Below, in pieces: positions 5,591 to 20,386 of a stretch of 48,414 nt of DNA. The stretch lies in the NCBI GenBank assembly GCA_019115665.1, contig DXDD01000145.1:1-48414 (forward strand). Direction: 5' to 3'. This DNA comes from Candidatus Eisenbergiella pullistercoris. Lineage in GTDB: Bacteria; Bacillota; Clostridia; Lachnospirales; Lachnospiraceae. The translations under genes and the position numbers were made by a program. Positions within the stretch are counted from its first letter, which is position 1; every line of letters begins with the position of its first letter. The notes under the pieces were generated by a model. It was not told where the DNA came from. It did not search any database and worked only from the letters and a program-made list of their open reading frames with translations.

Positions 5591-6456
5591 TTCCTTTTCC
5601 CCTTCCGTCTTCCCAGCGTATAAACCACCGTCTTCACCGCGTTATAGCCCTTTGCCATGGAAGGACTCTCCGCCATCCGCGTCCGCAGGGGCGCGAGCGT
5701 GGCCAGAAGGATCCCCCGATAGCAGGCGCTCTTTACCCGTCCCATGTAAAACCGCGTGATCACCCGATGCTCCAGCGCCGAACGTCTCCGGCTCTCTTTC
5801 GTCTCCGAATAGCCGCCGCCCTCGTAGGAGCAGACGACGAGGGGCAGATGCACCGGCTCCGCGTCCCTTTCATAGAGGCAGTACAGAAAATGCTCATAAT
5901 CTCCTCTCACGCGGAAATCCGTGTCGTATCCTCTTTCCCAGAAAAGAGAAGCGTCGTAAAAGCAGACCTGATGACAGGGAAGGTTGCGATAGCAGGCAAA
6001 ATCCGTCAGCTTCGGCGCGGAGCAGACGCGGCTCTGCTGCTTTTCATTGTACTGATCCCCATAGAAAAGGAACGGTCTGGCCCGCAGCCTGCTGTCCCGT
6101 CCCGCCTCCGTCTCTCCGATCAGCTCCGCCGTCCGGGCCAGCACCAAAGGATCATACAGACTGTCTCCGCAGTTCAGAAAAAGCACATAATCTCCATTGA
6201 TCTCCGGCAGAGCCTGATTCATGCCGTCGTAAATTCCCCGGTCCGGGCCGCGGAAAATACGCACCCTGCTGTCCGCCGCCAGGCAGGCTCCTTCCGCAGG
6301 CACGTCCTCCGGCAGGGAGCCGTCCGTGGAGCCGCCGTCCTTGATGATGATTTCAAAATTCCCATATTCCTGGCGGAGCACGCTTTTTACGGTTTTGGCC
6401 AGTTTTTTCCCGGGATTGAGGGATACGATCACGATACTAAAAAATATATGAGCCAT
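5587..6456 (-). CDS. Glycosyltransferase family 2
   Basis: FFSIVIVSLNPGKKLAKTVKSVLRQEYGNFEIIIKDGGSTDGS...GPDRGIYDGMNQAL. Confidence 0.9.
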   Translation of the reverse strand: MAHIFFSIVIVSLNPGKKLAKTVKSVLRQEYGNFEIIIKDGGSTDGSLPEDVPAEGACLAADSRVRIFRGPDRGIYDGMNQALPEINGDYVLFLNCGDSLYDPLVLARTAELIGETEAGRDSRLRARPFLFYGDQYNEKQQSRVCSAPKLTDFACYRNLPCHQVCFYDASLFWERGYDTDFRVRGDYEHFLYCLYERDAEPVHLPLVVCSYEGGGYSETKESRRRSALEHRVITRFYMGRVKSACYRGILLATLAPLRTRMAESPSMAKGYNAVKTVVYTLGRRKGKRK

Positions 6457-7657
6457 TCAGCCACTCCCTTTCCGTAAAGACCCAGGTATGATAGGGCAGC
6501 ACCCGCACCCCCACCTGGTCCGCTGTCAGAAGAAACACGCCGAAATACAGGGCGGAAAGAATCAGCACCGCCCCATACAGAAGCGTCCTTCTGTCCCATC
6601 CTTTTTCTCCCCTTTTCATGGCGCACAGCACGCCCGGCACCAGCAGAAGCTGGGGCGTGATCAGGTAATATCCCAGCCGGGAGATCAGCGGGAGAAAGGA
6701 GGCGCAGGTGTACAGCGCCAGTCCCAGCAGGTTCAGCTTAAAATAAAACAGGTTCGCCGGGCTTTCCTTCACCGTCCTCCAGCCCGCAAGACAGAATGCC
6801 AGCACGGCCGCGCAGCGCACGATCCCCATCAGGCTTCCTTCCAGCCCGGTTCCCTGCTCCAGATAAACCGTGTTCTGATAGGAGGGATACAGCTTCAGAA
6901 GGATCTCCATCCAGAAATCCTGAAACAGCGGAAGGCTTGCCGCAAAAACCGCTCCTATGGCCACCTGCCATTTCTTCCAGGGAAGAAGAGCGATGAGGTA
7001 CAGAGGGATCACCACCAGCACCGACTTGTGAAAAAGAGCCGCCCCCAGGATCAGCAGCACAAATTTTCCATATTCCCGCTTCAGCACGTATCGGAGACTG
7101 TAGAGCGTGACGGCCAGCACAAAATAATAGCGCACCGTGTTGAAGGTCCGAAAATACAGTCCCAGCAGCATGAACAGGGCGAAGGACAGGGAAAAATCCA
7201 GGCTCTGGTCGTACATGGCCTTCAGGAAAAGAAAGGTGGTGGCCGCCGCGAACACGCCGAAGACCAGAAGATAATTTTCTCCGCCGGACAGCGTATACAG
7301 AACCCGTACCAGCAGATTGAAGCCCGGCTCCGTCACCACATACCCGCCCACGAAGATTTCGTGGAAGGTATTCACATAATTCCCGTAGTCGTTCCCCACG
7401 TCGATGCGCAGCGCCGCAAGGCCCGTGAGCACCATGAACAGGAACAAAAGGACGGAAGCGTTCATGGCGCGGCGTCTGGTCATGCGCCTTCCGGCCATCC
7501 TCCCTCCGGCCATCTCCCCTCCGGCCGCGCTCCTTCCGGCCTCGTTTCTTCCGGTCCTGCCGTTTTCCCATGCCGGACCGCCGTATTCTGTTTTCACCAG
7601 CCAGGCGGCCCCGACCGTCAGGACGCCGACGCATCCATAAAACAGTATTCCCTTCAT
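6437..7657 (-). CDS. EpsG family polysaccharide polymerase-like membrane protein
   Basis: Polytopic; IDVGNDYGNYVNTFHEIF...FRTFNTVRYYFVLAVTLYSLRYVLKREYGKFVLLILGAALFHKSVLVVIPLYL. Confidence 0.8.
   Translation of the reverse strand: MKGILFYGCVGVLTVGAAWLVKTEYGGPAWENGRTGRNEAGRSAAGGEMAGGRMAGRRMTRRRAMNASVLLFLFMVLTGLAALRIDVGNDYGNYVNTFHEIFVGGYVVTEPGFNLLVRVLYTLSGGENYLLVFGVFAAATTFLFLKAMYDQSLDFSLSFALFMLLGLYFRTFNTVRYYFVLAVTLYSLRYVLKREYGKFVLLILGAALFHKSVLVVIPLYLIALLPWKKWQVAIGAVFAASLPLFQDFWMEILLKLYPSYQNTVYLEQGTGLEGSLMGIVRCAAVLAFCLAGWRTVKESPANLFYFKLNLLGLALYTCASFLPLISRLGYYLITPQLLLVPGVLCAMKRGEKGWDRRTLLYGAVLILSALYFGVFLLTADQVGVRVLPYHTWVFTEREWLNGSYIF
7487..7561. repeat. 15-bp coding tandem repeat (about 5 units) in the EpsG-like gene
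   Basis: CCTTCCGGCCATCCT / CCCTCCGGCCATCTC / CCCTCCGGCCGCGCT / CCTTCCGGCCTCGTT / TCTTCCGGTCCTGCC; encodes a GRTGRNEAGRSAAGGEMAGGRMAGRRM linker. Confidence 0.85.
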
Positions 7658-8475: not shown

Positions 8476-9536
8476 GCGCGGCCTCCCTTTCTTCCGTAAT
8501 AGGCGCCAAGAAAGCTGTCCTTCGCGCCATAGATCACCGCTCCCAGCACGGGGATCTCCAGCTTCCCGAGCAGATCCAGAAGCCGTCCGGCCATCCTGCC
8601 GCTCCCCTTTCCCCAGGGAAGAAGCAGAAGGACGCCGTTCTGCCGCATCCGCTCCGCCGCCTTCCTGTCAAAGGGCCAGACTTCCCCTTCCGCCGGAATG
8701 GGCAGCAGTCCGTCCAGGTCTGCCTGAGCCTCTGCCGGCTCCGTCCGTCCGAAAGCCGACGCGGCACTGGCCGCGTCCAGGACGGATACGCGCTCCCTGC
8801 CCTTCAGGCAGACGGCCAGTCCGGTTTCCAGCTCCCGGATCAGGCCCAGATCCCGCTTTTCCGTCAGGATCCCGAGCACCGGAAGCCCGTACCGGTTCTC
8901 AAAATCCGCCTCCAGATAAATGGAATCGTCCAGGCAGTAGTAAACCAGCCAACCGAAAAAGCCGGCGGCAGCTCCCAGAAGCAGTCCCAGAAGCGCCGCG
9001 TTCGCCGTCTTTGTCCCCCGGGGAACCCGTTTTGCTTCCTCCAGGAGCCAGCAGTCCATGCCGTCCAGCCCCTCGATGGAATGGCCGAAGCGGTCCAGGC
9101 CGTACACATAGGCCTCCGCGATGGTTTCCGAAAGCGCGGGATCCCGCGTGGTAATGTACAGCGGCATGATCTTCACATCGTTCATCGCTCCGACCGAGAC
9201 GGAAGCCTTCACCTGCTCCTTCGTGATCCCTTCCGGAAGCGCTTCAAGGACGAAGTCCAGCACCTCGTCCGTCTTCATGATCTCGCCCCAGGTATAGGCG
9301 TTGTAATAGTCTTCGATCTGACCATATTTTTCACTGTCGAAATAGATGCGGTACTGAGAAAAAACCTGGTATTCCGGCGGTCCTGCAAGGACCACCGCAG
9401 CCAGCAGATACAGACCGGCCGAGGCGGCCGCGCCGAGAAGCCCTGCGGCGGCGATCAGCCGCAGCCTTCTGAAAAGACAGAGAACAAGGCGCTTTCCGTC
9501 CATGCCCTCCTGCCAGAATCGTTCGTCCTTCCTCAT
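8472..9536 (-). CDS. Wzz/YveK-like chain-length determinant with degenerate BY-kinase-like C-terminus
   Basis: N-terminal TM, extracytoplasmic region (SVSVGAMNDVKIMPLYITTRDPALSETIAEAY), second TM, DDSIYLEADFENRYGLPVLGIL, C-term NGVLLLLPWGKGSGRMAGRLLDLLGKLEIPVLGAVIYG; no Walker A. Confidence 0.75.
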   Translation of the reverse strand: MRKDERFWQEGMDGKRLVLCLFRRLRLIAAAGLLGAAASAGLYLLAAVVLAGPPEYQVFSQYRIYFDSEKYGQIEDYYNAYTWGEIMKTDEVLDFVLEALPEGITKEQVKASVSVGAMNDVKIMPLYITTRDPALSETIAEAYVYGLDRFGHSIEGLDGMDCWLLEEAKRVPRGTKTANAALLGLLLGAAAGFFGWLVYYCLDDSIYLEADFENRYGLPVLGILTEKRDLGLIRELETGLAVCLKGRERVSVLDAASAASAFGRTEPAEAQADLDGLLPIPAEGEVWPFDRKAAERMRQNGVLLLLPWGKGSGRMAGRLLDLLGKLEIPVLGAVIYGAKDSFLGAYYGRKGGRA

Positions 9537-10924
9537 TTATTGTCCTCCTGCGCCTCCTGCTTCATCGCCGTGATCTGCTTCTCATCCACGCCCTCCGTGC
9601 TTTCCGGGCGGAACAGGATCTTCAGCGTCAGGAGCATCAGCTTGATATCCAGCCATACGGAATAGTTCTCAATGTAGGTCAGATCCAGCTTCAGCTTGTC
9701 ATAGGGCGTGGTATTGTACTTTCCATACACCTGGGCATAGCCCGCAAGTCCCGCCTTCACCTTGGTTCGGAAGGCAAACTCCGGCATTTCCTCCAGATAC
9801 TGGGAGATGATCTCCGGCCGTTCCGGTCTGGGGCCGATAAAGCTCATCTCTCCCTTCAGGATATTGAACAGCTGAGGCAGCTCGTCGATGCGCACCGCCC
9901 GGATAAAGCGTCCGATGGGCGTGATCCGGGAATCGTGCTTCGCGGCCAGCCTCGCCACGCCGTCCTTTTCCGCGTCCACCCGCATGCTGCGGAATTTGAG
10001 GATGGCAAATTCCCTGCCGCCCCTGGTGCATCGGATCTGCTTATACAGCACCGGGCCGCCGTCGTAAAGCCGGATGGCGATGGCGGTTACAAGCATGAAC
10101 GGGGAAGCGATGACCAGAAGGATCAGGGAGCAGACGATATCGATGCAGCGCTTGACGATCCGCTGCTCCACCGTCAGCGCGTTTTCCCGGGTGAGCAGGA
10201 TGGGCGTATCGAACAGGTGAAGCTGTTCCGAGCCCTTGATGATCACATCCGGGATCTTCGGCATCAGATAGATGCGGATGGAGCGGCTGTAGCAGTATTT
10301 CAGCAGCTTGTTGCGCACCGCCGTGGGGATGTCCCACAGCACCACGCCGCCGTAGCCCTTTTCCATTTCGTTAAAAAGCGCCTCTGCCCCTTCCTCCAGG
10401 CCCATGCACTTTACGATATCGTACTTGTCCTTCCTGCTGGCAAATTTATGCAGGATATCGTCGATGGAACGCTCCCCGTGGATCAGCAGCAGCCTTCTGG
10501 GCGGAAAGATCCTGCGGTAAACCCGGTTGGCCAGAAAGATCCAGACAGCGGACCAGACCAGCTGCAGCCCCATCATTTCCAGAAACGGCGCGGCCGGGAT
10601 CAGCCAGCCGTGGATCAGGGCCAGCTGAAAGTAGGACATGACATTGACACAGATCAGAGAAAAAATCTGCGACAGGAACGTTTCCATCGGTTTCAGATAG
10701 CCGATCCTGAGCCCGCCGTACAGATTGGAAAACAAAAACAGGAGCACCGCATAGATCAGCAGGATCAGAATATGTCCGTTGAAATACAGCTTGATATCAT
10801 AGATCAGGATATAAGGATAATAGAATCCAAACCATTTCCAGGCGTAAAAGCCTACCATGGCAATCATCCCAACAGCGGATATCAGCAGGATCAGCAGTCT
10901 TTTTGCGGTTTCCCTGTCGTTCAT
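9533..10924 (-). CDS. Polyprenyl glycosylphosphotransferase (EPS priming sugar transferase)
   Basis: KRCIDIVCSLILLVIASPFMLVTAIAIRLYDGGPVLYKQIRCTRGGREFAILKFRSM...GRFIRAVRIDELPQLFNILKGEMSFIGPRPERPE. Confidence 0.95.
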   Translation of the reverse strand: MNDRETAKRLLILLISAVGMIAMVGFYAWKWFGFYYPYILIYDIKLYFNGHILILLIYAVLLFLFSNLYGGLRIGYLKPMETFLSQIFSLICVNVMSYFQLALIHGWLIPAAPFLEMMGLQLVWSAVWIFLANRVYRRIFPPRRLLLIHGERSIDDILHKFASRKDKYDIVKCMGLEEGAEALFNEMEKGYGGVVLWDIPTAVRNKLLKYCYSRSIRIYLMPKIPDVIIKGSEQLHLFDTPILLTRENALTVEQRIVKRCIDIVCSLILLVIASPFMLVTAIAIRLYDGGPVLYKQIRCTRGGREFAILKFRSMRVDAEKDGVARLAAKHDSRITPIGRFIRAVRIDELPQLFNILKGEMSFIGPRPERPEIISQYLEEMPEFAFRTKVKAGLAGYAQVYGKYNTTPYDKLKLDLTYIENYSVWLDIKLMLLTLKILFRPESTEGVDEKQITAMKQEAQEDNK

Positions 10925-11045: not shown

Positions 11046-11798
11046 TTAGATCCGTCTCGCCGTCGCCCGCAGGGCCCAGAAGAACAGATAGTACGCGCTT
11101 GCCGCCGCGGAGAGCCTCTCCTGATCCCGGTACAGCCTCCAGATGCGCCGCACCGCCTCCGCCTTATTGGAGGAAAGGGAATTCTTCGGCCGCCGGTAGA
11201 CGGCCAGATTCTCATTCAGTCCGTGGGCCGTATAGCCCGCCCGCAGAATCCTCCACCAGGTCGCCGTATCCTCGCTCTTCACATCCGGCATGAGGATCAG
11301 CCTCCGGTCGATCTTTTCCAGATCGAACATCACCGTCGTGGTAAAGATCACCGTACGGGAGAGGGCCTCCCGGTAGGAAAGTGTCCGCGGCACGCGGACA
11401 ATCTTTCCGTTTCCTACCGCGTTTTCATCTCCGAACTCATATGCGGTAAAAGCAAAAGCAGCCTGCCTTTCCTTCAGAAAGGCAAGCTCTTTCTCCAGCT
11501 TTGTTTTTTTCCACAGATCGTCGGAATCCAGAAAGGCCAGATACCTTCCTTCCGCCAGGCGGATCCCTTCGTTGCGCGTCCGCGCCGCGCCGACATTTTC
11601 CGACAGCCGCACCGGACGGATGCGGCTGTCCGCGCGGGCCGCAGCCTGAAGCATGCGGAAGCTTTCATCCGAAGAGCAGTCGTCCACGGCGATCAGCTCC
11701 CAGTCCTGATAGGTCTGTTCCTGTACGGATGCGACCGTCTGCGTAAGCCAGGCCGCCGCATTGAACACAGGCATCACGATACTGATCCGTTCATTCAT
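11046..11798 (-). CDS. Glycosyltransferase family 2
   Basis: ISIVMPVFNAAAWLTQTVASVQEQTYQDWELIAVDDCSSDES...YLAFLDSDDLW. Confidence 0.92.
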   Translation of the reverse strand: MNERISIVMPVFNAAAWLTQTVASVQEQTYQDWELIAVDDCSSDESFRMLQAAARADSRIRPVRLSENVGAARTRNEGIRLAEGRYLAFLDSDDLWKKTKLEKELAFLKERQAAFAFTAYEFGDENAVGNGKIVRVPRTLSYREALSRTVIFTTTVMFDLEKIDRRLILMPDVKSEDTATWWRILRAGYTAHGLNENLAVYRRPKNSLSSNKAEAVRRIWRLYRDQERLSAAASAYYLFFWALRATARRI

Positions 11799-11806
11799 AG
11801 TATTTC

Positions 11807-12736
11807 TCAGATTTCTTCCTTTATCAGATAAATGGGCCTCTTTTTCACTTCCATATAGGTCTTGGACAGGTACTGCCCCACAATGCCGAGACAGAACAGC
11901 TGCACGCCGCTCACCATGCAGATGATGCAGGTCATGGAGGGCCAGCCGCCCACCGGATCCCCGAACAGCAGCGTTTTGATGATGATGACGAAGATCATCA
12001 GAAACGCGATGATGCAGAACAAAACGCCCATGACGGAGGCGAGGGCCAGCGGAGCCGTGGAGAAGGCGGTGATCCCGTCAATGGCATACAGGAACAGCTT
12101 CCAGAAGGACCATTTCGTCTCCCCGTGCACACGTTCAATATTCTCATATTCCATCCATTTGGTTTTAAAGCCGACCCAGCCGAAGATTCCCTTGGTAAAG
12201 CGGTTGTATTCCGTCATCTTCAGAATGGAATCCACCACCTGTCTGCTCATGAGCCGGTAATCCCTGGCTCCGTCCACAATCTCCGTTTTGGAGATGTGGT
12301 TGATCAGCCTGTAAAACATGCGGGCAAAGAGCGACCGGATGGGCGGCTCTCCCTTTCTGGAGACTCTTCTGGTGGCAACGGAATCATAGCCCTCATGGAT
12401 GTAGGAAAACATCTCCGGAAGCAGGGCGGGCGGGTCCTGCAGATCCGCGTCCATCATCACCACATAGTCTCCCTTCGACTTTTCCAGCCCGGCGTAAATG
12501 GCCGCTTCCTTTCCGAAATTCCGGGAAAAGGAAACCAGACGCACGCCCGCGTCCTTTTCCCGCAGCTTCTTCACCTCGGCGACGGTTCCGTCCCTCGACC
12601 CGTCGTCGATGTACAGGATCTCCACCTCCAGCCCTTCCTTTTCAAAAAAAGGCCGGTTCTTCATCAGCTCCTCATAAAAGCAGGCGACATTTTCCTCCTC
12701 ATTGTAGCAGGGGACAATGACACTCAGCAGACTCAT
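11807..12736 (-). CDS. Glycosyltransferase family 2, DPM1/GtrB-like with C-terminal TMs
   Basis: MSLLSVIVPCYNEEENVACFYEEL...DADLQDPPALLPEM...YRLMSRQVVDSIL; start placed at MSLLSV because the longer ORF runs through a repeat/hairpin spacer. Confidence 0.92.
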   Translation of the reverse strand: MSLLSVIVPCYNEEENVACFYEELMKNRPFFEKEGLEVEILYIDDGSRDGTVAEVKKLREKDAGVRLVSFSRNFGKEAAIYAGLEKSKGDYVVMMDADLQDPPALLPEMFSYIHEGYDSVATRRVSRKGEPPIRSLFARMFYRLINHISKTEIVDGARDYRLMSRQVVDSILKMTEYNRFTKGIFGWVGFKTKWMEYENIERVHGETKWSFWKLFLYAIDGITAFSTAPLALASVMGVLFCIIAFLMIFVIIIKTLLFGDPVGGWPSMTCIICMVSGVQLFCLGIVGQYLSKTYMEVKKRPIYLIKEEI

Positions 12737-12740
12737 CTGT

Positions 12741-12861
12741 TCCTCTTTCCCGCGGCCTTTGGCCGCATTTTCATGCGAAGAATTGCCTGCGCAATTCTTC
12801 CAGGAAATCGGCAAAGCCGATTTCCGCTCCTCTTTCCCGCGGCCTTTGGCCGCATTTTCAT
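12741..12861. repeat. Four-hairpin spacer flanked by 34-bp direct repeats (12741-12774 and 12828-12861)
   Basis: TCCTCTTTCCCGCGGCCTTTGGCCGCATTTTCAT appears twice. Hairpins: GCGGCC-TTT-GGCCGC (12752-12766), GAAGAATTGC-CTGC-GCAATTCTTC (12777-12800), GGAAATCGGC-AAA-GCCGATTTCC (12803-12825), GCGGCC-TTT-GGCCGC (12839-12853). Confidence 0.95.
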
Positions 12862-12905
12862 TCATGCAAAGAACGGCGCAGACCGTGTGCGCCCGTCTGA
12901 CCTCT

Positions 12906-13283
12906 TCAGGAAACGGACAGATCCAGCCGGACCCGGTCCGCTATCCTCGCGATATATTCGCTGTTGGTCGGCCGGGGCACGCCCGAAGCGCTGCTGTAGC
13001 CGAACAGCTCCTCGAATACCGCCGGATTCCCTCTCTCCCAGGAAACCTCGATCGCGTTGCGGATCGCGCGTTCCACCCGCTGGATATTGGTGTGCGCGCG
13101 TTTGGCGATCCCCGGATACAGCAGCTTGGTCACGCTTCCCACAAGCTCCATGTCCCGGGCCGTCAGCACGATGGCCTCGCGAAGGTAATAATACCCTCTC
13201 AGATGGGCGGGAACTCCCAGCTCCAGCATCAGAGCGGACACATAGCGTTCCATCTGCGTTTCCGTTGCTTCTATGGTGATCAT
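12906..13283 (-). CDS. Stand-alone Spo0A C-terminal DNA-binding domain protein (no receiver domain)
   Basis: LELGVPAHLRGYYYLREAIVLTARDMELVGSVTKLLYPGIAKRAHTNIQRVERAIRNAIEVSWERGN...LFGYSSASGVPRPTNSEYIARIADRVRLDL resembles the Spo0A effector domain; 125 aa total. Confidence 0.92.
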   Translation of the reverse strand: MITIEATETQMERYVSALMLELGVPAHLRGYYYLREAIVLTARDMELVGSVTKLLYPGIAKRAHTNIQRVERAIRNAIEVSWERGNPAVFEELFGYSSASGVPRPTNSEYIARIADRVRLDLSVS

Positions 13284-13370
13284 CTTCTGCTTCCTCCTGC
13301 GTTTTGATTCCGGAAATTCTTTCCAGAATCTATCTTACCATGTCCGCAGGGAAAAGCAGAACCGGAATCC

Positions 13371-13386
13371 GTCGAGAAATTTCGAC
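13371..13386. promoter_or_regulatory. Palindrome resembling paired Spo0A boxes
   Basis: GTCGA-GAAATT-TCGAC; minus strand GGTCGAAA resembles the 0A box TGTCGAA (6/7). Confidence 0.4.
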
Positions 13387-13439
13387 CGGAAACGCCAGGG
13401 ATACGCCTCTTTTCCGTACAGGCGTCCCCGCCGCCGGCG

Positions 13440-14501
13440 TCACAGATAGGCGTCTTCGCCCTTTTCCGCCAGCGTCTCCACGATCTCCTTCACCCGCTGC
13501 GCCTCAGACGCAGGGCAGACCAGAACCGACTTCCCGGCCTGTACGATGATCAGATCCCGCACTCCCACCGCCGCGATCAGCCTGTCTACAGAATACGCGG
13601 TACAGCCCCGGCTGTCAAGAAGCAGCGTCTTTCCCACGGCGATGTTGCCGTTCTCATCCCTTTCCTTCAGGGCGTCGAAGGCGTCCCAGCCCCCCACGTC
13701 GCTCCAGCCGAAATCTCCCGGGATCATCAGCACATGATCCGCTCTTTCCATAATACCATAATCCACGGAGATTTTGGGAATCTCAGGATAAATTTCCCAT
13801 AAAATCTCTTCCTCCCGTTCTGTCCCGAAGCCCTCCGCCAGCCTTTCCAGACAGGCGTAGATATCGGGAAGCAGCCTTTTAAACCAGGAAAGGATGGTAG
13901 AGGCGCGCCAGATGAACATGCCGCTGTTCCAGGCATAGCCCTCGGCCAGATACCGCTTCGCCGTTTCCTCATCCGGCTTTTCCACAAATTCTTCCACCCT
14001 GTGCCAGGGCTTTCCCTCCACTGCCGCATTTCTGATATATCCGTAGCCCGTGGACGGGAAGGTCGGACGGATTCCGATGGTGACAAGCGCGTCCGTTTCC
14101 TCCGCCGCCGAAACAGCCTGCCGCAGGGTCTGCCGGAATCCTTCTTCGTCGCGGATATAGGGATCGGAAGGGACCACGCACATGATGCCGTCCCCGTATT
14201 TTTTCAGGATGGTCATCGCCGCGTATCCGATGCAGGCCGCCGTATTTCTTGCCGCAGGCTCTCTGAGGATATGATCCTCCGCAACCCGTCCCGCAGTCTG
14301 GGAAAGCATCTCCTGCGCCTGGGCCGCGTTCGTGACGATGAAGGTTTCCCGCGCCACGCCGGCCAGCCGGTCCAGGGCCTCGTTCACCAGCGTCTCCTTC
14401 CCCGAAAGATTCAGAAACTGCTTGGGCTTTTTCCTGGTAGAAAGCGGCCACAGCCTGGTCCCGCCTCCTCCTGCCATTACCACACCATATACGTTCATCA
14501 T
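13440..14501 (-). CDS. manC: Mannose-1-phosphate guanylyltransferase
   Basis: MMNVYGVVMAGGGGTRLWPLSTRKKPKQFLNLSGKETLVNEALDRL...VEEFVEKPDEETAKRYLAEGYAWNSGMFIW. Confidence 0.95.
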   Translation of the reverse strand: MMNVYGVVMAGGGGTRLWPLSTRKKPKQFLNLSGKETLVNEALDRLAGVARETFIVTNAAQAQEMLSQTAGRVAEDHILREPAARNTAACIGYAAMTILKKYGDGIMCVVPSDPYIRDEEGFRQTLRQAVSAAEETDALVTIGIRPTFPSTGYGYIRNAAVEGKPWHRVEEFVEKPDEETAKRYLAEGYAWNSGMFIWRASTILSWFKRLLPDIYACLERLAEGFGTEREEEILWEIYPEIPKISVDYGIMERADHVLMIPGDFGWSDVGGWDAFDALKERDENGNIAVGKTLLLDSRGCTAYSVDRLIAAVGVRDLIIVQAGKSVLVCPASEAQRVKEIVETLAEKGEDAYL

Positions 14502-14554
14502 GATCCCGCCTTTCCTTTCCAATTTGATTTGTTCCTGCCGTGTTTCTGTCCGGA

Positions 14555-16315
14555 TCAGCCGTCCGACGGCCGGAAGCCCGCGCGCAGGTTCCCCTTCTCC
14601 CGAAGCTCGATGTCCTGCACCCGGGGAGCGGAAGGGAACTTGTCATAGCCGATCTTCCCGCCGTCCGCGGGGACATAAACCGTGATCCCGTCCAGCTCCC
14701 AGGCCACCGCCTCATATTCTCCGTAGCCCTGCTGTCTGACATAATACGGCTGCCCCGCTGAGGAGCGCACCGCCGCGGAAAGATCCGCCGCCTTGTACAG
14801 CAGGAAAACGCCCGCGCACAGCAGGAAAACGCTCCTGGCCGCTCCGGTCCCGCGTTCTCTGCCTCCTCCGGCCGTTCCGCCCATCCGCGCGTTCCGCATT
14901 CCGGCCTTTTCTCCGCCGGACGCTGTCAGGAAGCAGAACCAGAAACCCGCGGTTCCCGCCGGAAGGGCGATCACATAAGCGTAGCCGTAACGAACAAGAG
15001 GCGCGGAGAACTGCCAGAACAGGTAGCCGATGAGAAGGACCGCGCCGTACAGAAGCCAGTCCCGGCCCAAAAAGCTGCTTCCTTTCCTTCTCCGTTTCCA
15101 TGCCCCTGCGGCGCAGATAACCAGCGATGCCGCGTCCGCCGCGGCGCACAGGACGCAGGAGACAATCCACAGCTTTTCCATGCCGCGCAGCCGCGAAAAC
15201 CAGTTCCCTGCCCATCCGGCAAACGGCGTGTCATACAGATTCACATCGTACAGCCCTCTGGCGAAGACCTGGATCTCTTTGGCGTCCGAATCCGCATACC
15301 CCTTCTCCATCTTCCAGTCCACAGAAAACAGATCCACGAAGGTAAACGGATAAAACAGCCAGCCGGAGATCAGCACGCCCCGGATCATCCAGGGCAGACA
15401 GATCAAAAGCCCCAGCCCGAGATACAGGCCGATCTGCCTCCATTTTTTCCCGGCCAGCAGCATCGCCGCCGGCTTCAGCGCCAGCGCAAGAAGCACCGCC
15501 GCCGAAAGCTTCACGGTCACCGTAAAGACCAGAAGCAGGGACAGCAGCGCGTAGGGCGCAGCGTTTTTTTCGCCCGCCTCCAGTTCGTCCAGCCAGGCGG
15601 TCAGCACATAAAATACCAGCAGCATGGCGAAATAATCCGTGGCCGGGGAAACGATCTCCCCGAAGAGGACCGTCAGATAATAAACCGCTCCCAGCCGCAT
15701 GAAATCCGAGATCCGGACCCGTCTTCCCGTCCCCAGCGTCAGAAGCCCGCAGACGCACTGGATGGCGACGGCCAGAGCCAAAAAGCCCTGCGCCGCATGC
15801 ACGGGCTGGCCGAACAGCCATTTCATGGAAAAAAGGGCGCAGAGCGCGAAGGCCGCGCTGTTATAGGCAAATCTGCTGTGCAGGTTTCCCAGCCCCGGCG
15901 CCACGCCGTATTCCTCGATCCAGCGGATCGCCTGCGCATGGTACAGATCCGTATCCACATGCAGAAAGCCCCGGGACGTGCCGTATGCCAGAAGCAGCGT
16001 CAGAGCGGCCAGGAGCAGGAGCTTCGGCCGGGACAGTTCTTTCCGCCGCAGCCTCCAGAACTCCGCCAGCCTTTTTCGCAGGAGAACCGCCGATAAAACG
16101 CAGAAAAGGGCAAGAAGCAGATTCGCCCCCGCCCCCACGCCGCCGAACAGGCTGAAAACCTGCGCGTATCCCGTAAGCGCCGCCAGCCCGGCCATCCATA
16201 CGCCGGTTACTCTCTTCGGCCGGTATCCCAGCCTTTCAAAAGGCGCAAGGAAGACAAAGCCCGTCAGGAAAGCCGTTATTGAAAGCCAGCACCAGTTCAG
16301 CAGCACATAAAGCAT
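14555..16315 (-). CDS. Large polytopic membrane protein (possibly LIC_10190-like), EPS-associated
   Basis: Many TM segments; RGFLHVDTDLYHAQAIRWIEEYGVAPGLGNLHSRFAYNSAAF; good RBS (GGAGG) before MLYVLLNWCW. Confidence 0.7.
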   Translation of the reverse strand: MLYVLLNWCWLSITAFLTGFVFLAPFERLGYRPKRVTGVWMAGLAALTGYAQVFSLFGGVGAGANLLLALFCVLSAVLLRKRLAEFWRLRRKELSRPKLLLLAALTLLLAYGTSRGFLHVDTDLYHAQAIRWIEEYGVAPGLGNLHSRFAYNSAAFALCALFSMKWLFGQPVHAAQGFLALAVAIQCVCGLLTLGTGRRVRISDFMRLGAVYYLTVLFGEIVSPATDYFAMLLVFYVLTAWLDELEAGEKNAAPYALLSLLLVFTVTVKLSAAVLLALALKPAAMLLAGKKWRQIGLYLGLGLLICLPWMIRGVLISGWLFYPFTFVDLFSVDWKMEKGYADSDAKEIQVFARGLYDVNLYDTPFAGWAGNWFSRLRGMEKLWIVSCVLCAAADAASLVICAAGAWKRRRKGSSFLGRDWLLYGAVLLIGYLFWQFSAPLVRYGYAYVIALPAGTAGFWFCFLTASGGEKAGMRNARMGGTAGGGRERGTGAARSVFLLCAGVFLLYKAADLSAAVRSSAGQPYYVRQQGYGEYEAVAWELDGITVYVPADGGKIGYDKFPSAPRVQDIELREKGNLRAGFRPSDG

Positions 16316-16386
16316 GTTCCGTTTTTTCCTCCGCGCCGAAGCGCCCGGCGCTGCGGGCATGCAGCGCTCCGGCGGTCCTTCGGCAG

Positions 16387-17538: not shown

Positions 17539-17568
17539 TTTATTATATTGCCGACAAATGGGAATATA

Positions 17569-17597
17569 TTGCTATCAGTCTCCTTTTGCAGTATAAT
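17569..17597 (+). promoter_or_regulatory. Candidate promoter of the AraC-family gene (divergent from gmd)
   Basis: TTGCTA - 17 bp - TATAAT. Confidence 0.65.
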
Positions 17598-17656
17598 AGA
17601 AAAAACCGTGCAGAAAGCGGGAAAATGCACGCCCCTTTTCTGCGGAAAGGAACCGG

Positions 17657-18493
17657 ATGGCAAAATCTGTATCGGACCGGGTGCTGGCGACCCCCTCCGC
17701 TCACGCAAGAGCCCGTTACCTTTACGTCCAGGAGATCGGCACCCTGACCTCCATGGAACCCCATATCAGCTCCCGCGAGAACCTGAGCTCCTATCTCTTC
17801 CTGACGGTGCGCCGGGGCGAAGGCTATCTGACCTACCGGGGGAAACGGCATTTCATCAAGACCGGCGACTGCGTCTACATCAACTGCCGCAACCAGTACG
17901 CCCATGAAAGCACGGCGGAGCATCCCTGGACGCTGATGTGGGTGCATTTCAACGGAAACGGGGCGGACGATTTCTATCAGACCTACCAGGAGCAGGAGCG
18001 CGGCTCCATTTTCCATCCGCCGGATCCGGCTCCCTTTACGGACAGTTTGACCGCTCTGTACAGTCTGATGCATGAAAAGCCTTCCCTGATGGAGCTGTAC
18101 GCCCACCGCTATCTGACGGACCTGATCACCCTCTGCTTTACGGGAGGGCGTCCGGAAGCCGGGCAGGAGGATTCCGTCTCTCCCAAGCTGCTTTCCGTCC
18201 GGCAGTATCTGGAAGAGCATTACATGGAAAAAATCACTCTGGAGGAGCTGTCCTCGCGCTTTTTTATCAGCAAATATCACCTCTCCAGAGAATATAAAAA
18301 GCATTACGGCATCACCATCGGAAATGACCTGACCGCGCGAAGGCTGTCCCACGCCAAATCGCTCCTGCGCTTTTCGGACGGCTCCATCGAAGGGATCGCC
18401 GCCGCCTGCGGCTTTTCCGATGCAGGCTACTTCATCAAGGTCTTCCGGAGGTCGGAGGGAATGACCCCTCTGGAATACCGCCGGAAATGGTAA
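17657..18493 (+). CDS. AraC family transcriptional regulator
   Basis: Cupin-like N-term; ITLEELSSRFFISKYHLSREYKKHYGITIGNDLTARRLSHAKSLLRFSDGSIEGIAAACGFSDAGYFIKVFRRSEGMTPLEYRRKW. Confidence 0.95.
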   Translation: MAKSVSDRVLATPSAHARARYLYVQEIGTLTSMEPHISSRENLSSYLFLTVRRGEGYLTYRGKRHFIKTGDCVYINCRNQYAHESTAEHPWTLMWVHFNGNGADDFYQTYQEQERGSIFHPPDPAPFTDSLTALYSLMHEKPSLMELYAHRYLTDLITLCFTGGRPEAGQEDSVSPKLLSVRQYLEEHYMEKITLEELSSRFFISKYHLSREYKKHYGITIGNDLTARRLSHAKSLLRFSDGSIEGIAAACGFSDAGYFIKVFRRSEGMTPLEYRRKW

Positions 18494-18568
18494 ACTGCAG
18501 GAAATGGCAAAACGACGGAAAACGGCGGCCTTCTGCCCGCTAAAGGACCGCCGGGAAAGGAAGCTTTC

Positions 18569-20386
18569 ATGACTGGAAAAAGAAATCTGTGGAAAGTCGC
18601 CGCCGCGCTGGAGGCCTGGTTTTCCTCCTTCGCCCTCATCCGCGTCTGCGGGCTGGAAACGACCGGCATCTTTTCCCTCGTTTTCTTCTTTTTCTGCTTC
18701 CAGATCTTTCTTCTGGGAGCCGGCAGGGAACGGGAGGATCTCCTGACAAGGGACGGACACAGACTGGTGCTCTCCCTTTCCGCCGCAAAACGGCGGAAGG
18801 CTTCCGCAGCCCTCGGTCTGTTCTTTGCGCTCCTCTGCCCTGCATGCGAACGGGAAACGCTTACCGAAGGGCTGACCAGCCCTCTGTTTCAGGCCGTCAG
18901 CCTTCTGTTCTGCGCGGCCGGCTTCTTTTTTCTGTTTTTCCGGGGGCTCAGACTGCTCTTTTTTTATCTGGAAAAGCGGACGAAGCGCATCCTCGGCCTG
19001 AGAAATCCCAGCCTTCAGGATCAGAAGCTTCCCCGGCAGATGAAGCTTCTGATTCCGCTGATCCTGCTGTGCTGCTGGCTTCCCTGGTTTCTCTATCAGT
19101 TTCCCGGCGTCATGACGCCGGACAGCCTCAGCCAGTACAGTCAGGCCATGGGGCTTTCGCCCGGCAGCGATCATCATCCCTTTGCGCATACCCTGCTCAT
19201 CCGGCTGCTCCTTTCTCTGGGAACGGCGCTCTTTCACAATGTCTATGCGGCCATCGCCTGCTATACCGCCTTTCAGATGCTCCTGATGGCGGCGATCCTG
19301 TGCTATTGCCTGTGCATCCTGTACCGGTACGGCGCGGGCAAGAAGCTGTGCTTCCTTTTTCTGCTCTTCTACGCCTGCGTTCCCTATAACGGGAACTTCG
19401 CCGTGACGATGTGGAAGGACGTACTGTTTTCCGGCTTTCTGCTCCTGTTCGGCCTTTTTGTCTATCAGCTGCTCCACCTGTATTCTTCCGGAGAACGGCT
19501 GAAAAGAAAGCCGGGGCTTCTGATCCCGCTCCTGCTTTCCGGCCTGCTGGTCTGCCTTTTCCGTTCCAACGGCCTGTATCTGTTCCTGCTCACCCTTCCC
19601 TTTCTGGTACTCGGCCTGCGGCGGGAATGGAAGCTCCTGCTTCCGGGGCTGCTCCTTACGGCGGCGCTTGCCCTGTGCATCAAGGGGCCTGTCTATGACG
19701 CCCTCGGCGTGGCGAAGCCCGCCTTTTCCGAATCCCTCTCCATCCCCGCCCAGCAGATCGCCCGGGTGGTATATGAAGGGAGGGAGCTTACGCAGGAGCA
19801 GATCGATCTGCTGGATCGGACCGTGGACTACGATTCCATCGCGGCGTATTACCAGCCGGAGCTTTCCGATCCCGTCAAGGCTCTGATCCAGTACGGCGAT
19901 CCGGAATATCTGGACGCCCATAAGGGCGAATATCTGAAGCTGTGGCTCCGGCTCGGCCTGCGCTACCCTGCGGATTACTGGAACGCCTTCGTGGATCAGA
20001 CCCACGGCTACTGGTACCCCGGAAATCCGGGGCTTACCGTCAATGAAAGCATCTCCCCCAACGACCTGGGACTTTCCGGCCAGTCCGTTCTGGCAGGAAC
20101 GCCGGCCTGGAAGATCGCGGAGATCCTGAACAAGCTTTATACCATCTTTCCGCTTTACGGCCTTCTTTACAGCATCGGCTTTTTCACCTGGGCCGCCGTT
20201 TTCTGGTGCGCGAACTGCGCGCTGAACGGCAGGAAGAGAAACTGCCTCCTGTTCGTTCCGTTTTTTGCCCTGATCCTGACCCTCTGCCTGGCTACGCCCG
20301 TGGCCGCGGACCTGCGCTACGGCTACCCGCTGATCCTCTCCATGCCGCTGCTTCTGTGCGCCGGGCTGGAGGTTCCGATCAAATAG
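18569..20386 (+). CDS. Polytopic membrane protein, DUF6020-like
   Basis: Many TMs; LYQFPGVMTPDSLSQYSQAMGLSPGSDHHPFAHTLLIRLLLSLG and VTMWKDVLFSGFLLLFGLFVYQL. Confidence 0.75.
   Translation: MTGKRNLWKVAAALEAWFSSFALIRVCGLETTGIFSLVFFFFCFQIFLLGAGREREDLLTRDGHRLVLSLSAAKRRKASAALGLFFALLCPACERETLTEGLTSPLFQAVSLLFCAAGFFFLFFRGLRLLFFYLEKRTKRILGLRNPSLQDQKLPRQMKLLIPLILLCCWLPWFLYQFPGVMTPDSLSQYSQAMGLSPGSDHHPFAHTLLIRLLLSLGTALFHNVYAAIACYTAFQMLLMAAILCYCLCILYRYGAGKKLCFLFLLFYACVPYNGNFAVTMWKDVLFSGFLLLFGLFVYQLLHLYSSGERLKRKPGLLIPLLLSGLLVCLFRSNGLYLFLLTLPFLVLGLRREWKLLLPGLLLTAALALCIKGPVYDALGVAKPAFSESLSIPAQQIARVVYEGRELTQEQIDLLDRTVDYDSIAAYYQPELSDPVKALIQYGDPEYLDAHKGEYLKLWLRLGLRYPADYWNAFVDQTHGYWYPGNPGLTVNESISPNDLGLSGQSVLAGTPAWKIAEILNKLYTIFPLYGLLYSIGFFTWAAVFWCANCALNGRKRNCLLFVPFFALILTLCLATPVAADLRYGYPLILSMPLLLCAGLEVPIK

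Follow-up and report, generated by a model that had tools for sequence, protein, structure and literature searches.

In Bacillus subtilis, Spo0A controls the matrix exopolysaccharide indirectly, through SinI/SinR and eps. Phosphorylation of Spo0A is regarded as the gate through which all endospore formation passes, and spore-formers are classed in genome surveys by the presence of spo0A (PMC8340488). Experiments with the isolated DNA-binding domain of Spo0A have shown that it binds its targets without phosphorylation, and that its base contacts are G2, C4 and G5 of TGTCGAA (PMC3485338). The window analysed here, which is the whole stretch of 48,414 nucleotides of DNA, belongs to Eisenbergiella (Lachnospiraceae) and encodes a Spo0A effector-domain-only protein of 125 amino acids (12906-13283, minus strand), with a Shine-Dalgarno sequence GGAGG just 5' of its ATG. 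This gene and its orthologues are called W.

W is the Spo0A effector domain alone, complete and with nothing else attached. The Spo0A_C profile (PF08769) matches it along its full length (positions 1-103 of 104; 122.9 bits, E 6.7e-36, curated cut-off 25), and among solved structures its closest relatives are 1FC3 and 1LQ1, both Spo0A effector domains, with about 50% identity. An AF2 model of W, with a pLDDT of 92, has the same two structures as its Foldseek matches, with a TMt of 0.89-0.92 against 1LQ1. A sequence-only reading had taken the product for an effector domain without an N-terminal receiver, and both points are borne out: the Spo0A equivalog model TIGR02875 aligns only at its positions 144-262 of 262 (143.4 bits, below the 200-bit cut-off), and the phospho-acceptor Asp of the receiver is missing. 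A receiver encoded upstream in a corrected frame was looked for and none was found; the 156-bp gap between W and manC is too short to hold one in any frame. The gene is present in 12/12 genomes of the same genus, and in comparisons with seven relatives its pN/pS of 0.04-0.12 indicates strong purifying selection. It lies in an exopolysaccharide (EPS) locus and not after spoIVB, where a separate Spo0A sits.

The upstream neighbour of W is a manC-like gene for mannose-1-phosphate guanylyltransferase (13440-14522, minus strand; NTP_transferase, ManC beta-helix). Downstream come two GT2 glycosyltransferase genes, GT2a (11807-12865, minus strand; real start probably at 12736, after a good Shine-Dalgarno sequence) and GT2b (11046-11798, minus strand; profile match and synteny). 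The four genes are co-directional, as had been noted from the sequence. Farther downstream are other glycosyltransferases, a polyprenyl glycosylphosphotransferase (PHPT, Bac_transf; 9533-10924, minus strand), which would start the synthesis of the EPS repeat unit, and an EpsG-family polymerase-like membrane protein (6437-7657, minus strand; profile match and synteny). Glycosyltransferases, a priming PHPT and an EpsG-type polymerase are thus found together, as expected of an EPS locus. Between W and GT2a there is a 39-nt direct repeat (95%; 12736-12774 and 12823-12861) that holds a GCGGCC hairpin and a Shine-Dalgarno sequence. Two large proteins of the EPS locus, of 601 and 820 amino acids (14555-16360 and 17543-20005, minus strand), have no Pfam match and evolve fast between species.

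The synteny survey covered 80 W loci, with flanks of up to 10 kb, and these loci represent many genera within the Eisenbergiella/Acetatifactor group. The PHPT-GT2-EpsG set adjoins W in most of them, and the EPS context is kept well beyond the genus. In Eisenbergiella the gene order is manC-W-GT2a-GT2b-PHPT, in Acetatifactor-type loci it is mostly GT2a-W-(one or two genes)-GT2b-PHPT, and in a few loci W points the opposite way from the EPS genes (L080, L095, L098, L101, L103, L112). Since the set is kept despite these differing orders and inversions, the link between W and EPS outlasts rearrangement. The exceptions, with no PHPT-EpsG set nearby, are L065, L086 and L091; in L065, by our own reading of the sequence, a gene resembling a sialic-acid synthase adjoins W. 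In E. tayi and E. porci W runs straight into GT2a. Terminator-like hairpins end W in Acetatifactor-type loci, so there W is not simply co-transcribed with the EPS genes.

The true Spo0A of these bacteria is encoded at recN-spoIVB-spo0A-glgA (order read in L195; spoIVB was also read in L194, which is from the genome of the window), and it too is receiver-less. Only the first ~35-45 receiver residues survive; in the genus this headless Spo0A starts like MEQLRMSAGKDNERVVQILTDLMKTNKEFQIMITVPA, continues with a variable linker and ends with the effector domain. Receiver positions 1-31 can be aligned to its first 31 residues (hhalign P 2.3e-7, against 0.055 for the reversed control). In all of the Spo0A copies examined from W-bearing genomes (39/39), the receiver HMM matches from position 1 and no farther than position 56 of its 126. 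The phospho-acceptor Asp is missing here as well. Nothing beyond the remnant stands out in the six frames of 13 spo0A loci (remnant only, 13/13), and a search of the genus for a stand-alone Spo0A receiver gave, among the matches listed, a best receiver-only score of ~86 bits, in other response regulators. Selection on the remnant is likewise purifying (pN/pS 0.05-0.10), and the promoter of spo0A is also conserved. In one genome (G111) there is a stop in spo0A. The sequence-only reading had pictured W as a phosphorelay-independent paralogue beside a phosphorylated Spo0A, a premise that fails, given that the 39 copies are all receiver-less. We found no description of a headless Spo0A in the open-access papers searched. 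Automatic annotation hides the missing receiver, because the headless Spo0A clears the NCBIfam Spo0A cut-off (209 vs 200 bits; L195:4542-5120 and L194:5115-5783, both on the minus strand).

Among 120 Lachnospiraceae genomes the main Spo0A is short in 11, and the same 11 carry W. In 148 genomes of the order there were six short main Spo0A proteins, all in the window's family and all accompanied by a W-type copy; in the other families of the order the main Spo0A frames have at least 259 amino acids. A headless Spo0A was therefore accompanied by W in every case of the family and order surveys. W and headless Spo0A may each have arisen once, which would make this co-occurrence close to a single evolutionary event. 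W is found in many related genera beyond Eisenbergiella, including Acetatifactor, and forms one group in the effector-domain tree (SH-aLRT 94 in a quick tree of 76 rows; 98/80 in a careful tree). Headless Spo0A also forms one group in the careful tree (99/96). The AU test of an origin of W from an already headless Spo0A (p 0.40-0.45) does not discriminate.

Several other copies of the domain were met in these surveys. The genome that the window comes from carries two Spo0A_C copies in addition to W, one of them the headless Spo0A. A third paralogue, sister to W (L003:1468-1962; L238:6606-7097; L245), occurs in Eisenbergiella genomes and some close relatives; it keeps a receiver-like N-terminal remnant, carries R214H and in several genomes lies not near EPS genes but near ATP-synthase-like genes and a gene for an FAD-type oxidoreductase. 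The truncated-receiver architecture recurs in another family, where genome G244 has two tandem Spo0A paralogues with truncated receivers (L251) beside a full-length Spo0A (L252). The complete Lachnospiraceae genome G153 has nine Spo0A_C copies, most with short frames, and in genome G084 (locus L075) W is present and no Spo0A copy was found. Other Spo0A_C-only or truncated proteins of the Lachnospirales (for example L221-L233, L251) resemble W in having Spo0A_C without a full receiver. However, the L221-L233 type falls outside the W clade (L251 was left out of the tree), many of these proteins score only 70-117 bits against PF08769, compared with 122.9 for W, and most of them, unlike W, are in genomes with a full-length main Spo0A.

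The changes in the effector domain of W follow a pattern. The recognition-helix residues E213, R214 and R217 are invariant in 76 W sequences, and S210Q and H218N, which neighbour these kept residues, are fixed; the fixed or nearly fixed changes are S210Q, H218N, A223S, K246R, F252Y and M255R. At residues 227-245, the region in which activation mutants of Spo0A lie, the entropy is 1.25 bits in W vs 0.21 in headless Spo0A. This pattern suits a DNA binder with altered specificity and weak activation, and the poor conservation of the 227-245 region hints that W may be a repressor or a competitor.

Upstream of W, 88 bp from its start codon, is GTCGAGAAATTTCGAC (13371-13386), in which the sequence-only reading had seen a palindrome close to the 0A box. 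The element is 0A-like and conserved. As an inverted repeat it is imperfect, with mismatches in 2/8 pairs, so the perfect palindrome was rejected; it is better described as two direct, head-to-tail 0A-like boxes, GGTCGAA-ATT-TCTCGAC (13371-13387, minus strand), 10 bp apart from start to start. Two direct boxes at this spacing are the geometry known from abrB. Compared with two TGNCGAA boxes 10 bp apart, box 1 has G2, C4 and G5, and box 2 lacks G2. In Eisenbergiella the 10-bp spacing scores 12.05 vs at most 10.35 at other spacings. An extended -10 promoter element, TGGTAAGAT (13332-13340, minus strand), was located by alignment; relative to it, the boxes occupy positions of about -62 to -46. 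Alignment of homologous upstream regions from the eight closest species shows almost no variation in the operator block or in the extended -10 downstream of it. The block occurs at one site per genome, upstream of W, and no wider regulon of it was found.

Related forms of the block are present in 17/24 Eisenbergiella loci, 0/56 other W loci and 0/858 control upstreams, so the conservation expected of the element holds among the closest species and is lost outside the genus. There a different W promoter block is found, with TTCGACA-type boxes next to an extended -10, and W upstreams are enriched in 0A-like boxes of this other kind. A 10-bp 0A tandem motif common to all W loci was also considered and set aside, since only 16/80 reach p<=0.05 and the motif is mainly that of Eisenbergiella. 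In pooled counts from related species, which are not independent, GTCGAAA/TTTCGAC occurs in 16/80 W upstreams, 11/44 spo0A upstreams and 3/858 controls. The extended -10 TGnTAnRAT is found in 54/80 W upstreams vs 51/858 controls, with the same dependence among related species. Upstream of spoIIA, 0A boxes are scattered single matches.

Much of the endospore gene set is present in the clade. SpoIVA is intact in 9/13 Eisenbergiella genomes, including 5/5 of high quality, and was not found in the window's own genome, which is 90% complete. SASP was found in 11/12 genomes, sigF and sigG in 8/8 genomes tested, and the spoIIAA-spoIIAB-sigF operon in six members of the clade. SpoIIE frames of the headless-Spo0A clade have ~400-495 amino acids and match from ~410, compared with ~310 in most other sampled Lachnospiraceae. 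A SpoIIE truncation special to the clade is only partly upheld, given that the other Lachnospiraceae also match only from ~310.

With moderate confidence, we propose that W is a phosphorylation-independent, Spo0A-type local regulator of itself and of EPS. The architecture of W, its clade and context, the conservation of its promoter and the loss of the receiver are observed; DNA binding, targets and direction of control are predicted from sequence. A duplicated Spo0A effector domain would have become W, the dedicated local regulator of the EPS locus. From its fold, the kept E213/R214/R217 and the published work on isolated effector domains, W probably binds 0A-like boxes unphosphorylated. Its probable targets are its own promoter, by way of the conserved boxes at 13371-13387, and the EPS genes of the neighbouring PHPT-EpsG set. 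In the lineage of W (Eisenbergiella, Acetatifactor and relatives), Spo0A itself has lost the phospho-acceptor part of its receiver. Since W and headless Spo0A both lack that part, neither is switchable by receiver phosphorylation, and control must have moved elsewhere: to the level of synthesis, to partners or to competition between W and headless Spo0A. A broader proposal, which we consider about evenly balanced between right and wrong, is that sporulation and matrix control are carried out, in a clade of gut Lachnospiraceae, by Spo0A proteins that all lack a receiver: the master regulator's phosphorylation input would have been deleted once in the common ancestor, control passed to headless Spo0A and W, and the endospore gene set would persist under phosphorylation-free control.

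W could instead act mainly as an antagonist or partner of headless Spo0A, occupying 0A boxes at spo0A and at the promoters of early sporulation genes, and restraining a Spo0A that is no longer switched off by dephosphorylation, its EPS address being secondary. The presence of W in every headless-Spo0A genome of the two surveys, the 0A-type boxes upstream of headless spo0A, and the kept recognition-helix residues beside a diverged 227-245 region are all consistent with such a role. However, W has kept its place among the EPS genes despite rearrangement and inversion, for which a protein acting elsewhere would have no need, and S210Q and H218N may have altered its specificity; we regard this explanation as unlikely, though deserving of attention. 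We give still less weight to a headless Spo0A whose conserved N-terminal remnant (beta1-alpha1-beta2) serves as the entry point of a new input, with W as one downstream effector gene. Purifying selection on the remnant and its conservation in all 39 copies argue for this, and similar remnants on extra paralogues elsewhere (L231, L251) suggest a use, but a 37-residue piece cannot fold as a receiver, it could be a mere helper segment or the original start region, and the candidate partner is only hypothetical.

That the clade is losing sporulation, and that W and headless Spo0A are its decaying leftovers, seems improbable. A published table lists E. tayi as a species that does not form spores (PMC5741734), and the shorter SpoIIE and the G111 stop point the same way. 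Against decay, pN/pS is low, the effector residues are nearly invariant, the promoters of spo0A and W are conserved, and SpoIVA, SASP, sigF, sigG and spoIIA are kept in most genomes tested. As many of the genomes are MAGs, the receiver might also have been lost through an assembly error, a frameshift or a wrong start codon; this is hardly credible, given that the same architecture is found in isolate and complete genomes (L041, L043, L044; Spo0A copies L148, L152, L150), that 39/39 copies are alike and that the six frames of 13 loci hold no receiver beyond the remnant. The local regulator of EPS is the reading we retain.

A whole clade thus combines three things: a Spo0A that passes the annotation cut-off but offers no receiver for phosphorylation, an effector-only copy in an EPS locus, and much of the spore gene set. 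It follows either that sporulation is possible in the absence of phospho-Spo0A or that the Spo0A effector now serves other ends, matrix control for instance. Receiver-deleted or constitutive Spo0A proteins from the laboratory (the isolated DNA-binding domain; sad67) are active without phosphorylation and carry the same kind of lesion as headless Spo0A; they are, however, constructs or mutants, whereas headless Spo0A is natural and fixed across the clade. Because sporulation is not set off by inducing sad67 in B. subtilis (PMC6629627), the clade would need a different control of timing. W has the effector fold, E213/R214/R217 and 0A-like boxes in common with Spo0A of B. subtilis and C. difficile, but it lacks receiver and hinge, lies away from the spo0A locus and inside an EPS locus, and differs in its six fixed or nearly fixed changes and its relaxed 227-245 region. 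The Spo0A-SinI/SinR-eps pathway of B. subtilis is likewise a Spo0A-type control of EPS, but an indirect one, whereas the W gene is physically inside the EPS locus.
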